From positions 4,402,001-4,466,000 of the forward strand of contig NC_089390.1 of the NCBI RefSeq assembly GCF_003171515.1: a stretch of 64,000 bases of DNA. The letters run 5' to 3'. Position numbers and translations under genes: made by a program. The stretch is from Pyrenophora tritici-repentis (taxonomy: Eukaryota > Ascomycota > Dothideomycetes > Pleosporales > Pleosporaceae). This document shows positions 8,852-54,626 of the stretch, piece by piece. The notes below the pieces were generated by a model. It was given only the letters and a program-made list of their open reading frames with translations, did not search any database and was not told the DNA's origin. Positions within the stretch are counted from its first letter, which is position 1. Each line of letters starts with the position of its first letter.

Positions 8852-11061
8852 ATGTCGACCGAGGAGGGTGCCAACCAGGCGTCTGCCGCGCCCAAACCAG
8901 CGGCGGCCTTTAGTTTCTCTATTAATAGTGAGTCGTCCCATGCGATGGTGCTCGCGCCGCCGCTAAGACGTGGGCAGAGAATACAACGAGCAAGAAGTTT
9001 GCACCCAAGGCAGCACGACGAAGACCAGGCGCTCCGCCTGCTGCACCTGCTGCACCTGCTGCATCATCGCCTGCACCGGCATCAGAGATACCCGCATCGA
9101 CTGCCGAAGTGCCCAACCCGCAAGCCGAACCCGAAGCCGAGACCTCGAATGCGCCTGCCGCCGACTCGACACCTGCCGTACAGCTGCCCACGCCTGCCGC
9201 GACTCAAGAGACCGTAAATAGCACTGCTCAAGCCGACCTGTCGATTATTACTGCCACTGCTACTGCGACCGGGACCCCTGCACCCACCGACCCGAATGTT
9301 CAGACGCAGGCAGCCAATGAAGCCAGTGCCGCCCAGCCTTCTACCTCACAAGGCCTCACAACACAGTACCTCGAAGATGAAGTCCAAGCAGGGAGGTCAC
9401 CTAAGAGGCGCCGCCTAGAGTCCCCCGTACAGCCAAGCCAAGAGGTCCAAGTTACTGCACCTGTGAGTGCGCCGGCAACAGCAGATGGAGACGGCGAGCA
9501 ACCACCTGGCGCGAACACTGCCCCGACTCCTGCAGAAAACCAGACTCTCCCACAGCCCAGAAACAGAAGGAAACTGCCGTGGATATCGGTGAACCACTCC
9601 CAAGATGGCGGCGCGGAAACCCCTGCCGGTGCGTCTACCCGGAAGCCTCGCCAACCTCCCAGGCCCCGAGCGAAGAAGAATGCCATGGCGGACGCAGACG
9701 CAGATGCAGATCATGTGGAGGAAGAGGAAGAAGCTGAAGACGACGAAGAGCTACAACCCACGAGAAAACGACCTGGCATAAAGTCCCGCACAAAGAAGAA
9801 AGCCACCGAAGCACCCACACAGGACGGCGAAGAAGTCCCCGCGGCCCCAAAAAGAGCCAAGAAGCCCCGGAAACCTAAAGGCGCCCTGAGTAGCGAGATC
9901 GTCGAAGGAACAGAGGAAGAGGTCGGACGCATCGCAGACGATATCGTAGCAGCCGCCACACGTCGCAAACCGAAGCCAAGGAAAAGGAGGCAGCCCACTC
10001 CCGAGGCCGATGAAGTAGATGGTGTTGAAGGCGAAGAGGGCACACAAAGGGAGAAGAAGAGAAGGGGACGACCGCCGCGCGAGGCCACCCCGTCTGATGC
10101 GGAAGATCAGACCATCGACCCCGATGTCACCTACATGGACTCTCTGGCAGCTCGCCACGTCCATTGGGGAAAACTCTCTACGAGAGAGAGAGAGATGCGC
10201 ACGATAGACTGGGAAGCAGTCAAGCAGCGCCGCAGAGAGGAGGACTCCCGAGAAATAGCTTCCAGGGCCGAGCAGGAAAAAGCGGACAGAGAATTGGCTG
10301 AGCAAGGGGCACAACGGGCTGCGCAATCCGAGTTCGAAAACGTCCGTCTGAACGCAGAGGGTAATTTGGAGATAATACCTCAAGCTGGAATCATTGATCT
10401 TGAGGGCGACGCCGCTCGCGAGATCGATCAGATGGTCGTTACCGAAGACCAGGACATTACTGCACGCCTTACCAATCGTAGCTTCATGAAAAACAACAAG
10501 CGGTTCCCCAACGAGTTTATCCTACCAGGCCAAGGTCGACGATGGAATATGGAACTCACGGAGCTCTTCTACCAAGGCCTCAGATCTTTTGGTACGGATT
10601 TCCAGATGATATCGCAAATGTTCCCCGGTTTCACTCGGCGCTCCATCAAAACCAAGTTCACCCGCGAAGAGCGTGAGAACCCCGACGGCGTCAAGGCAGC
10701 GCTGCAAGGCCGCTGCGAAATGAACGCGGGAGGATGGAACATGTATCTGGAGAAAGCGAACAGGTCCGAGGACTCGTTTGCCAATGTGGATGAGATCAAG
10801 CGCGAAATGGCCGATCTTGAGGCTGAGTACGCGAAGAAGATTGCGGTAGCAAAAGCAGAAGCTTTGGAGAGGAAACGTCAGAGGGAGCTTGCTGGCATTG
10901 ATGAAGACGGAAACCCGCTGGGCCCTGATGGTACGGCGAACAAGGAGAATGGAAAGGGGAAGAAGAAGCGAGGCAAGAACAAGCAGGTCGCTTTCGAAGC
11001 AGAGCAGGGCGTGGAAATTATTGGGGAGATTGGTGATGATGATACTTGGGGTCAAGAGTAG
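8852..11061 (+). CDS. bdp1: TFIIIB subunit Bdp1 (B'')
   Basis: Exons 8852-8927 and 8978-11061 (50-nt intron, GTGAGT donor, CAG acceptor) give 719 residues. Bdp1 joins TBP and Brf1 to form TFIIIB, which places RNA polymerase III on tRNA, 5S and U6 genes. The short first exon encodes MSTEEGANQ and leads into a Pro/Ala/Thr-rich disordered N-half. This is followed by long basic and acidic stretches with several KPRK, RKRR and RGRPP segments that look like nuclear localisation or AT-hook-like sequences. The SANT/Myb domain is at about residues 543-595 (GRRWNMELTELFYQGLRSFG, then FPGFTRRSIKTKF), preceded by the conserved NRSFMKNNKRFP region. Starting at the internal ATG at 9109 would drop the N-terminus. 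A tRNA gene lies 366 bp downstream on the same strand. Confidence 0.93.
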
Positions 11062-11427
11062 CGATGGTGTGAATGACGAAACGATTAAGAAGCATGATAC
11101 CCCATAGATTCCACAGTCTCGATACTGAGATGGCAGATGCGAAGCTGCTCTCAAATACAGTCATATTCAGCCTGGTGTTGGAGTCCTATACTTTTGATTG
11201 CCCAAGATGTGAATTCTAAACTTACCTGAAAGAAAAACTGCATAAGCAGCAGTAATGTCATTATCGTGGTGCGGTCTGTGGGGCCGGCCCAAATAGTCGA
11301 CCGCACAACACACTCGCTTGGCCCAAAGCCCAATTCCCCACACCCACGCATTTGTACCAACATTGTAATACAACTAATTTCTCTGTCTCTCATCAAACAG
11401 CTTGAATTCTCAAGCAAACAACCTATC
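11062..11427. other. bdp1 3' flank and tRNA 5' flank
   Basis: No gene recognised. The stretch directly before the tRNA (about 11405-11427) is A/C-rich, as is usual upstream of tRNA genes. Confidence 0.5.
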
Positions 11428-11557
11428 GGGCTCGTGGTTTAGTGGTATAATACTCCCTTAGCATGGGAGTGGTCCGGGGGTAAGTCACAACTCGCACCTT
11501 CAAGATAAGGTTACAGTCGTACTAACAATCTGCTTAGTTCGATTCCCCGCGAGTCCA
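11428..11557 (+). tRNA. tRNA-Ala(AGC) with a spliceosome-type intron in the T arm
   Basis: Mature parts are 11428-11479 and 11538-11557 (72 nt before CCA). The acceptor stem is GGGCTCG/CGAGTCC (six Watson-Crick pairs and one G-T), with discriminator A. The D arm is GTT...AAT with the AGTGGTA loop. The anticodon stem CTCCC/GGGAG encloses TTAGCAT, so the anticodon is AGC (Ala). The variable loop is TGGTC. The T-stem halves CGGGG and CCCCG and the loop TTCGATT are perfect, but only after removal of the 58-nt insert at 11480-11537. There is no insert at the usual 37/38 position. The 3' end is followed within 10 nt by a T9 run. The nearly intact B box at the second exon (AGTTCGATTCC) suggests it can still be transcribed by Pol III. 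Confidence 0.85.
11480..11537 (+). other. 58-nt GT-AG intron-like insert between tRNA positions 53 and 54
   Basis: The insert begins GTAAGT and ends CTTAG. It carries a perfect TACTAAC branch sequence at 11520-11526, with the branch A 12 nt before the acceptor G. Its length and all three signals match the mRNA introns in neighbouring genes. tRNA splicing endonuclease introns sit next to the anticodon, so this position and these signals point to the spliceosome. Removal recreates a perfect 5-bp T-stem and an ordinary TTCGATT loop. That splicing occurs in vivo is inference. Confidence 0.85.
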
Positions 11558-11566
11558 TCGTGTTTC

Positions 11567-11575
11567 TTTTTTTTT
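11567..11575 (+). terminator. Pol III terminator (T9) of the tRNA-Ala gene
   Basis: Nine consecutive T residues start 10 nt after the discriminator base, the usual position and form of an RNA polymerase III terminator. Confidence 0.75.
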
Positions 11576-12349
11576 GCGGATTAAAGGGCTGTAATTTTTG
11601 GCTATGGGAGGTTGATGCAGAAAGATGAGATGGGTTGAGGGTACGAGGATGGGAGCTTTAGGGTTAGGTGCTGCACTTTTTGCTCCGGCTGACAAAGCGG
11701 GATATGCGAGCTGCACGAAGTTCCTTGCAATGGCACTAGCGTCGACACAACTGCTTGTGGAAACAACGATTACTTAATGACTATATACTAATGTCGCCAT
11801 GTTCAACAACGGCTGTATACCAGTCATGTTTCCAACATGACATTAGAGTTGAGATTAATGATCAAGCTGAACGCTAAACCCCTTGCGACCGGCTAAGCTC
11901 CGAAAGTCCACTAGCGGCTGCCGCTTTGTGTGAGTAAGCCATGATTAGAAAGCATGTCCTGCACGATTTCCTCGTTGTTCCAACAAATTCCTACTTCCCG
12001 AATCAGCAAAGTCGACATGCGTTTCATGTTGACGCTGTGAAATTAAGTTGCGGTAGAATTCCACGGGCCAATCGCCGACGCCGAAAGCGCAGTAGAGGAT
12101 CTGTTGCCGACATGTTTGGTGCGTGGATTTGTAAAGTCAATTGTGGTTTGTGAGATTTGGGATTACAAAGTTCATGTGCGCACGGATATTGGTACGTTGG
12201 TGAGTGCTGGTAAGGATAAGTATGGGTTGAGGTCGTGGTATATTGCTACTTTCTCAGTTCAAACATTTTCATCATCTACAACATCTATCTCCATCCCTCA
12301 CATTACCACGCGTTTGTGAATAAGTACTGGGATCATTACAGCCACCGAA
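11576..12349. other. Intergenic
   Basis: No gene recognised; contains the promoter of the following MFS gene. Confidence 0.5.
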
Positions 12350-21997: not shown

Positions 21998-23939
21998 ATG
22001 TTGCCCTACATCAACGCACGTACGTGGAAGTTAACCAAGCTGTCGTCTTGTATACTAATACTATGAAGCATTTGAATATGTGGCCAATATTCTTGGAAAC
22101 TCTACAGATGAGCGTAAGCTACCATGACTAAATTTACGTACCCCTGCTTACTGACGGACCACATAGTGAAGCTCATCTTCACCTTCTACCTGTCCTACCC
22201 CTTGGCTGCTGTCCTGAAAAGGATACCTGACAAGGAACCATGGAAGAAAAACATGTTCGTAATCGGGTAAGTCAAATCATACCATACCCGTAGAATGCCG
22301 TTTTAATGATCCAAGTGTGTCACTGTTCTACCTCGTCGGGCTTTTTGACATGTGGAGTGGACTGCGGACCATCCTCATCAGTGCTGGTGGTGCCTATCTC
22401 ATCTCGTCCCGGATTCACTCCCCATACATGCCGTGGATAGGTTTCGTCTTCCTCATGGGCCACATGTCGGTCAATCACATCTATCGGCAGGCCGTTAACG
22501 ACCCGTCTGCCTTGGACATCACAGGAGCTCAGATGGTACTGGTTATGAAGCTTACCGCCTTTTGCTGGAACGTGCAAGATGGTCGCCTCCCTGATTCCGA
22601 ACTCACTGATGTTCAACAAGAACACGCTATCCGAACCATGCCCAGCCTTCTTGACTACACCGGCTATGTCTTCTTCTTCCCAGCTCTCATGGCAGGCCCA
22701 GCCTTTGACTACTCTGAGTACAGCAACTACATCACCACGACCATGTTCACTCTACCGCCGGGCACTGATCCATCCAAAGCACCTCCAACGCGTAAGAAGC
22801 GTAAGATTCCTCGAAGCGGTATGCCGGCTGCCATCAAGGGCGCTTATGGAACTCTTTGGCTCGTCGCTTTCATCAAATTCTCCAGCTGGTATTACCCCGC
22901 CTTCTATCTTGGCGATGATTACATGCAGTACAACTTTTTCCGCAGGATCTGGCAGCTGTACATGCTTGGTCTCACCACTCGCATGAAGTATTACGCTGTC
23001 TGGAGCTTGTCGGAAGGATCGTGCATCCTGTCCGGTATTGGCTACAATGGAATTGACCCAAAGACCAACCGCCCAAGATGGGATCGCCTCACCAACATCA
23101 AGCCCCTTGAAATTGAGAGAGCGCAAAACGCCCGCGCCTATCTTGGATTCTGGAACATCAACACGAACCAATGGCTCAAAAATTACATGTACCTGCGTGT
23201 GACGCCAAAGGGCAAGAAACCTGGCTTTAGAGCCACACTGGCGACCTTTGTAACCAGCGCTTTTTGGCACGGCTTCTATCCCGGCTACTACCTAGCATTT
23301 GTACTCGCGGCTTTTGTGCAAACTGCCGCAAAGAGTAAGTGGCCTATTACGCTGAGACATATGTAATACTGACACGACATAGACGGCCGTCGCTTAATCC
23401 GCCCACTTTTCATGACACCAGACGGCAAAGCACCGCTTCCATCTAAGAAATACTACGACATGTTTACCGTCTTTCTCACGCAAACTGTGTTTGCGTACGT
23501 TGTCGCGCCATTTATCCTGCTCGGTTTCTCCGACACGATCAAAATTTGGTCACGCGTCTACTTCTACACTCTTATTGGCGTGGCCGGATCCTTTGCACTG
23601 TTCTCACGCTCCTTCCCTTTCCGAAAGCAGCTCGTTCAGCTTCAATCTGCTCGTGCGTCACCCGCAGCTCCTACGTATGACGACCCCGCAATTGAAAAGG
23701 CAGCACGTGAGGAAATTCGGAGAGAACGACTTGCTAGGACAAAATCAACCGATAGTTTTAGCAGCGCAAAGATGCCTCTCCACGGTATCGCTGACGACCC
23801 CGAAGCTGAGATTGATGAAATCGTCGCAGAAGTAAAGGCAGAGATCGAGCAGAGGAAGAGAAGGGGTAGTGTGATGCAAGGCTTCGACCTGAAGAAGGCT
23901 GTGCAAGAGAAGTTGAACCAGTTTAACAAGAAGACCTAG
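21998..23939 (+). CDS. ale1: Lysophospholipid acyltransferase, MBOAT family (Ale1/Lpt1 type), 5 exons
   Basis: Exons 21998-22019, 22069-22113, 22167-22266, 22316-23334 and 23383-23939 give 580 residues. Four introns of 48-53 nt each have clean signals, and the first two exons are only 22 and 45 nt long. Ale1-type enzymes of the ER re-acylate lysophospholipids at sn-2 in the Lands cycle. The multi-pass protein shows the family stretch MGHMSVNHIYRQ, FFPALMAGPAFDYSEYSNYI and the catalytic His (about 374) in SAFWHGFYPGYY. The C-terminal tail is charged and cytosolic, with a short coiled coil (ERRRGSV-like Lys/Arg/Glu-rich end). A model starting at 22317 would lack the first TM helix, so the five-exon model is preferred. 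Confidence 0.93.
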
Positions 23940-54227: not shown

Positions 54228-54626
54228 ATGCATCTTGTACATCTTCTCCTACCACTAGTTAGCATTGCAAGCGCAGCGAGCACAGACAAATGTTCGACCG
54301 TTAGAGTTTCTCAGGCGGACAAATGTGCGCGTCCCGAAGCGGTAAGTTATCGACTTATTTATCATATATTAGCCAGATACTAACATCGTATAGGGAGTAT
54401 ATCTAGCTCCTAGGCTGGATGGTTACGCTATTAGTAATATGTGGGGCTACGTCTGTAAAGGAATTGCTCAAGGCGGCTCTATTGTCAAACCAAAAAACCC
54501 TTGCTACCCAGTTGGTGACCGCAGATACTTTGACGTATATGTTCGTAATCGCTACCTACTCTATACTGAGCTCTTACTAATTGCCTATGGCTATAGGTCA
54601 AGTGTTGCCCTCTTGGAGGTAGTTAG
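54228..54626 (+). CDS. Small secreted cysteine protein 2 (paralogue family A), 3 exons
   Basis: Exons 54228-54341, 54394-54534 and 54597-54626 (introns 52 and 62 nt, both phase 0) give 94 residues. A signal peptide (HLVHLLLPLVSIASA) precedes six Cys at 22, 33, 59, 75, 88 and 89 (DKCSTV, DKCARP, YVCKG, NPCYP, VKCCPL). The third exon is exactly 30 nt and ends CCPLGGS, as in the paralogue at 55308, whose third exon is also 30 nt. If intron 2 is retained the frame stays open to 54828, which would replace the CC end by an unrelated about 98-residue tail. The spliced form is favoured by the paralogues. Confidence 0.72.

Follow-up and report, generated by a model that had tools for sequence, protein, structure and literature searches.

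A tRNA-Ala(AGC) gene of Pyrenophora tritici-repentis with a putative spliceosomal intron between T-stem and T-loop

Anatomy of the split gene

The window, that is, the whole stretch of 64,000 nucleotides of Pyrenophora tritici-repentis DNA analyzed here, carries a tRNA-Ala(AGC) gene in two pieces at 11428–11557 on the plus strand. The two pieces are separated by an insert that lies between the last base of the T-stem 5′ strand (position 53) and the first base of the T-loop (position 54); its features are collected in Table 1. The joined exons form a standard tRNA-Ala of 72 nt—a cloverleaf with the anticodon AGC, the pair G3:U70, and A73. ARAGORN calls tRNA-Ala(agc) on this joined form only; on the unspliced gene, it calls no tRNA, even with anticodon-loop introns permitted. 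The preliminary description had placed a 58-nt insert at 11480–11537 and none at the canonical position 37/38: the coordinates are exact, the tRNA call depends on the excision, the anticodon loop is uninterrupted, and the presence of a split tRNA-Ala(AGC) gene as first described is confirmed. ARAGORN is permissive, with 600 of the 5508 tested excisions of 20–100 nt leading to some tRNA call, so the boundaries of the insert are not fixed by its verdict alone. The empty site as defined by two uninterrupted paralogues, together with a second split paralogue, is the stronger proof of the insert.

Table 1. Positions of the split tRNA-Ala(AGC) gene, its signals, and related features (window coordinates unless a contig, C1 or C4, is named)
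Feature	Position	Strand	Remarks
Exon 1	11428–11479	+	52 nt, tRNA positions 1–53; acceptor 5′ strand, D-arm, anticodon arm, variable region, T-stem 5′ strand CGGGG; 52/52 identical to second split copy
Insert (spliceosomal-type intron)	11480–11537	+	58 nt; the C4 copy has a diverged homologue of 55 nt in the same place
Exon 2	11538–11557	+	20 nt, tRNA positions 54–73; T-loop TTCGATT, T-stem 3′ strand, acceptor 3′ strand, A73; 20/20 identical to second split copy
5′ splice site	11480–11485	+	GTAAGT; GTGAGT in second copy; both fit GTRAGT
Small hairpin, donor-to-branch-site region	11496–11511	+	ACCTT-6 nt-AAGGT; second copy ACCTTG-3 nt-CAAGGT
Branch site	11520–11526	+	TACTAAC; TCGTACTAAC kept in second copy
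3′ splice site	11536–11537	+	AG; intron ends TTAG (second copy, CTAG)
Box A	11435–11445	+	TGGTTTAGTGG; first half of the Pol III internal promoter
Box B as in DNA	11536–11546	+	AGTTCGATTCC; opens with the final two bases of the intron
T9 run, likely Pol III terminator	11567–11575	+	read from sequence
Second split tRNA-Ala(AGC)	C4, ends 2291200	minus	insert 55 nt, GTGAGT..TACTAAC..CTAG, same place
Uninterrupted tRNA-Ala(AGC)	C1:4258727		94% identical to joined 72-mer
Uninterrupted tRNA-Ala(AGC)	C1:6078940		94% identical to joined 72-mer
Frame-joining mRNA intron	23335–23382		48 nt
Frame-joining mRNA intron	30748–30696		53 nt

The Rfam tRNA model, run with permissive filters over 11300–11700, matches the unspliced gene end to end at 37.5 bits (cut-off 29) and puts 64 nt into the T-loop. 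The fast Rfam pass across the window does not report the gene, and a whole-genome tRNA search in which 63 of 1172 candidates were scored lists both uninterrupted tRNA-Ala(AGC) genes and neither split one. In the same region of 11300–11700, and with E values up to 1, the tRNA is the sole Rfam match. A self-splicing group I or II intron was considered and dropped because the insert is too short—58 nt as against a catalytic core of some hundreds of nucleotides.

Splice signals of the insert

The preliminary description had read the signature GTAAGT, TACTAAC, and TTAG in the insert. All three are there, with 11 nt from TACTAAC to the intron end, and the second copy keeps GTRAGT, TACTAAC, and AG. 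Removal of the insert joins the exons into a standard tRNA-Ala, uninterrupted paralogues of the same structure exist, and the insert has the marks of a U2-type intron. The strict signature GTRAGT-TACTAAC-YAG with intron-like spacing occurs twice in the window, both strands summed—at the tRNA locus and at 54342—and in none of 20 dinucleotide shuffles of it. A looser signature is not clearly enriched (12 matches as against a shuffle mean of 6.9 and a maximum of 14). The two tRNA introns measure 58 and 55 nt, and two frame-joining mRNA introns of the window, a small sample, 48 and 53 nt.

Pol III promoter and terminator elements

The intron splits box B, and its terminal AG precedes TTCGATTCC. 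Box B, hence, reads AGTTCGATTCC in the DNA of both split genes and GGTTCGATTCC in that of the uninterrupted ones. Box B is near-consensus in all four genes, that of the split ones having A in first place. Since the AG of the intron supplies the G before TTCGA, box B survives, and Pol III transcription should survive with it. Box A matches the consensus at tRNA base 8 in 4/4 tRNA-Ala(AGC) genes, and the three genes other than that of the window carry T5–T6 runs 2–5 nt past the tRNA. The longest T runs within the two introns are 2 and 3, so neither intron should end Pol III transcription early. At the level of sequence, the split gene thus has both internal promoter boxes and the T-run expected of a gene read by Pol III. 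The gene directly upstream (window 8932–11061, plus strand) encodes a Myb_DNA-bind_7 protein. Bdp1, an initiation factor of Pol III, belongs to this family; the place of the gene beside the split tRNA is probably a coincidence.

Two split and two uninterrupted genes

A protein encoded in the window shares 90% identity with a Pyrenophora seminiperda protein, 88% with one from P. teres f. teres, and 94% with a third protein, in keeping with a Pyrenophora-like fungus. The genome—40.9 Mb in 41 contigs—was searched with the joined 72-mer and yields four tRNA-Ala(AGC) genes, two uninterrupted and two split. Two pattern searches for uninterrupted tRNA-Ala(AGC) genes return the same two and no further tRNA. 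A count of the other tRNA-Ala(AGC) genes had been proposed in the preliminary description; that two of the four carry an intron at the identical place strengthens the splicing reading.

The exons of the two split genes are identical at 72/72 sites, and their introns share 44 identities over 61 columns (shuffle mean 33, maximum 38). At the divergence of the aligned intron sites (8/52), zero mismatches over 72 exon sites have a probability of ~6e-6, a conservative figure because the 52 intron sites include the splice signals. The flanks lie near shuffle level, with 129 identities in the 200 bp upstream (shuffle maximum 126) and 118 in the 200 bp downstream (shuffle maximum 125), yet the ~40 nt immediately 5′ keep some likeness. 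The BLAST match between the split copies spans 180 columns at 82%. Compared with the uninterrupted genes, the split ones feature four differences, which amount to two compensated pairs, 6:67 and 50:64 (pairing by eye), both spanning the intron; C6:G67 and G50:C64 mark the split genes. Exon identity and compensated pairs together suggest selection on the tRNA in its joined form. Some of the exon identity could stem from concerted evolution among tRNA copies, which must then spare the intron lying between the exons. Beyond the splice signals, the two introns share TCGCACCTT, AAGGTT, and TCGTACTAACA with the small hairpin—a likeness that may reflect either constraint or recent common origin.

Ordinary tRNA introns and scans for further cases

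The genome also contains tRNA introns of the usual kind, located in the anticodon loop: those of two tRNA-Ala(TGC) genes measure 14 and 11 nt, and those of three tRNA-Lys(CTT) genes 35 nt. These introns indicate that the normal tRNA intron pathway is in use and that its introns look different.

Four pattern scans of the genome reveal no third split tRNA of this kind among the matches examined; they depend on CTAAC and on standard T-loops, and cases outside these could be missed. The genome scan for CTAAC..AGTTCGA yields 32 matches (pattern read backwards, 137); among the 30/32 examined, only the two Ala loci combine a paired T-stem, a GT start, and CTAAC. For CTAAC..AGTTCAA, there are 44 matches (backwards, 119), and none of the 30/44 examined has a split-tRNA structure. 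CTAAC..AG located 5′ of an intact T-arm gives 3 matches genome-wide (backwards, 5), all of them tRNA-Lys(CTT) with the anticodon-loop intron, and GTRAGT..CTAAC located 3′ of the T-arm gives 1 (backwards, 2), in which ARAGORN finds no tRNA. Three Ala pattern scans return, respectively, 1 match that is not a tRNA; 10 matches (backwards, 10) consisting of the 2 uninterrupted tRNA-Ala(AGC) genes and 8 non-tRNA sequences; and 16 matches (backwards, 8), among which 2 of the 3/16 examined are tRNA-Ala(TGC). A DNA search of the genome with the intron finds no relative; the same search also misses the diverged second copy, so its reach is short and a diverged introner family could escape it. In the prokaryotic and viral collections, which have no bearing on related fungi, GGGAGTGGTCCGGGGGTRAGT has 0 matches (genome_contigs and viral_contigs), ACTAAC..AGTTCGATTCCCCGCGAGTCC has 0 in genome_contigs, the prokaryotic collection, and CTAAC..AGTTCGANTCCC occurs in 77 viral contigs, none with a tRNA-intron structure.

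Two further observations concern other tRNA sequences of the assembly. At L191 (G000:C1:458366-458749), an 84-nt tRNA-like sequence is found that has 19 places of equal score (46.1 bits) across nuclear contigs; the copy examined is tRNA-Arg(tct) by ARAGORN, and the sequence is possibly a tRNA-derived repeat. The contig G000:C41 (183218 bases) is rich in tRNAs, some of them at equal-score pairs of places, and probably represents a large mitochondrial genome, parts of which are repeated.

Proposed explanation and its alternatives

The gene is probably a functional nuclear tRNA-Ala(AGC) gene that is transcribed by Pol III and carries at 53/54 a U2-type spliceosomal intron for removal by the spliceosome; comparison of the four gene sequences supports the interpretation first given to the locus. 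Pol III would transcribe the whole split gene as a precursor, on which the spliceosome would recognize GURAGU and UACUAAC. The intron would leave as a lariat, with G53 joined to U54 and the T-loop restored. Processing of the 5′ and 3′ ends and CCA addition would then take place on the completed T-arm and acceptor—presumably in this order, because the T-arm would not be properly formed before splicing, which would have to precede end processing. Most likely, the intron was gained once, in an ancestor of both split genes that was later copied to different places; this gain may have come about through reverse splicing, with an abundant RNA as the target.

The two uninterrupted copies also bear on the opposite case, in which the gene fell silent through the insertion and these two alone supply mature tRNA-Ala(AGC). 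Insertions into the D- or T-arm in one of several eukaryotic tRNA copies are, as reviewed, treated as marks of pseudogenes (PMC4090602). In a dead gene, the exons would drift like the insert; here, 72/72 exon bases are kept at two places despite diverged introns (44/61) and flanks. This contrast between exons and intron speaks against a dead gene, both introns keep exactly the splice signals, and silence of the gene is unlikely. Splicing could also be confined to Pol II read-through, for example in the 3′ UTR of the upstream gene, with the tRNA part being incidental; a plus-strand reading frame does end at 11061, 367 bp 5′ of the tRNA. However, the second copy has the same intron amid flanks close to shuffle level, and both copies carry their own box A, box B, and T-run, which makes such read-through a very improbable explanation.

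The tRNA splicing endonuclease cuts at the usual place inside the bulges of a bulge–helix–bulge. Its action on the insert as a noncanonical intron of the type found in archaea, nucleomorphs, and one red alga would have precedents in the 53/54 introns known in archaea and the T-arm introns of nucleomorphs (PMC4090602), and both loci allow a bulge–helix–bulge-like pairing to be drawn, with 4/4 central and 4/4 outer pairs. In the drawn pairing, however, the junctions lie at the edge of the helix, unlike in a bulge–helix–bulge; the inner helix pairs 2/4 in the window and 0/4 in the second copy; and cuts at the usual bulge place would leave position 54 with G in place of U. Such removal would also leave the spliceosomal signals unexplained, and the tRNA-Ala(TGC) and tRNA-Lys(CTT) introns of the same genome sit in the anticodon loop. 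Removal by the endonuclease is, hence, highly unlikely. An assembly error was dropped from consideration because the second locus has the same structure.

In an extended reading, the split genes form a nuclear tRNA family dependent on the spliceosome: their Pol III precursors would be its obligate substrates and the AG of the intron would rebuild the internal promoter, and the intron itself may be old, widespread in related fungi, and overlooked. This extended reading is likely. Such introns may be overlooked because the detection of noncanonical introns in tRNAscan-SE 2.0 is described for archaeal tRNAs (PMC8450103). Known split tRNA-Ala(AGC) genes of this kind number only two, in one genome. 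Since two uninterrupted copies exist, the split genes may be dispensable to the cell.

Significance

Two splicing systems are usually kept separate: tRNAs are served by an endonuclease and a ligase, whereas mRNAs and a small number of small RNAs go to the spliceosome. If the proposed explanation is true, a Pol III tRNA precursor can enter the spliceosome pathway, and part of the supply of one tRNA is tied to spliceosome activity. The locus would also document cleanly how a noncoding gene gained an intron, with empty paralogues for comparison, and surveys of tRNAs could miss spliceosome-dependent tRNA genes. Among the titles and abstract openings listed by searches of open-licence PMC, none reports a nuclear tRNA gene with a spliceosomal intron, which does not establish absence from print; as far as these searches show, the nuclear tRNA gene is a new host of spliceosomal introns.

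Comparison with known systems

Judged by analogy, the introns of the split tRNA-Ala(AGC) genes would work like those of fungal U6, U3, and rDNA genes. The mRNA-type introns of U6 snRNA genes were reportedly treated by Canzler et al. 2016. In Schizosaccharomyces pombe and other fungi, the U6 snRNA genes feature the same arrangement as proposed here—a spliceosomal intron in a small RNA made by Pol III. They differ in that U6 is itself part of the spliceosome, with the intron near the catalytic bases, whereas the tRNA is without such a link. The fission-yeast intron is described as spliced out, meaning that the spliceosome acts on a Pol III transcript, and an origin of U6 introns by reverse splicing is thought likely (PMC10484740). 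In this genome, the best U6 gene has no interruption, which counts against the proposed explanation. Two partial U6-like copies, L052 and L053, are also found: one is a U6 3′ half joined to unrelated sequence, and the other is divergent and under the Rfam cut-off.

The introns of fungal U3 snoRNA genes share with the tRNA introns canonical splice sites and a noncoding host gene, and paralogues within one species may differ in intron presence. They belong to another RNA class, however, and are reported to lie almost only in the first 5′ stem-loop (PMC5832005). The introns of ascomycete 18S rDNA include a class from the Pleosporales, Ple.18S1, and are alike in having GT-AG ends, a structural RNA gene as host, and the same order of fungi; their excision was reported by RT-PCR, and reverse splicing was proposed. 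In contrast to the tRNA introns, they reside in an rRNA gene, with an intron of 355 bp and many known host species (PMC11889510).

Among introns of tRNA genes, those at 37/38 of nuclear genes are substrates of the endonuclease. They interrupt tRNA genes, occur in this genome, and differ from the present introns by their other position, short length, and lack of a comparable set of spliceosomal signals. The introns of archaea, Cyanidioschyzon merolae, and nucleomorphs share a location outside 37/38, with 53/54 among the sites known from archaea and the T-arm among those of nucleomorphs, but are, as reviewed, linked to the endonuclease and the bulge–helix–bulge or are of unknown mechanism, with lengths down to 3 nt; "spliceosom" has 0 occurrences in this review of noncanonical tRNA introns (PMC4090602). 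An intron at position 53/54 has precedents in other organisms—what is new is the set of spliceosomal signals.
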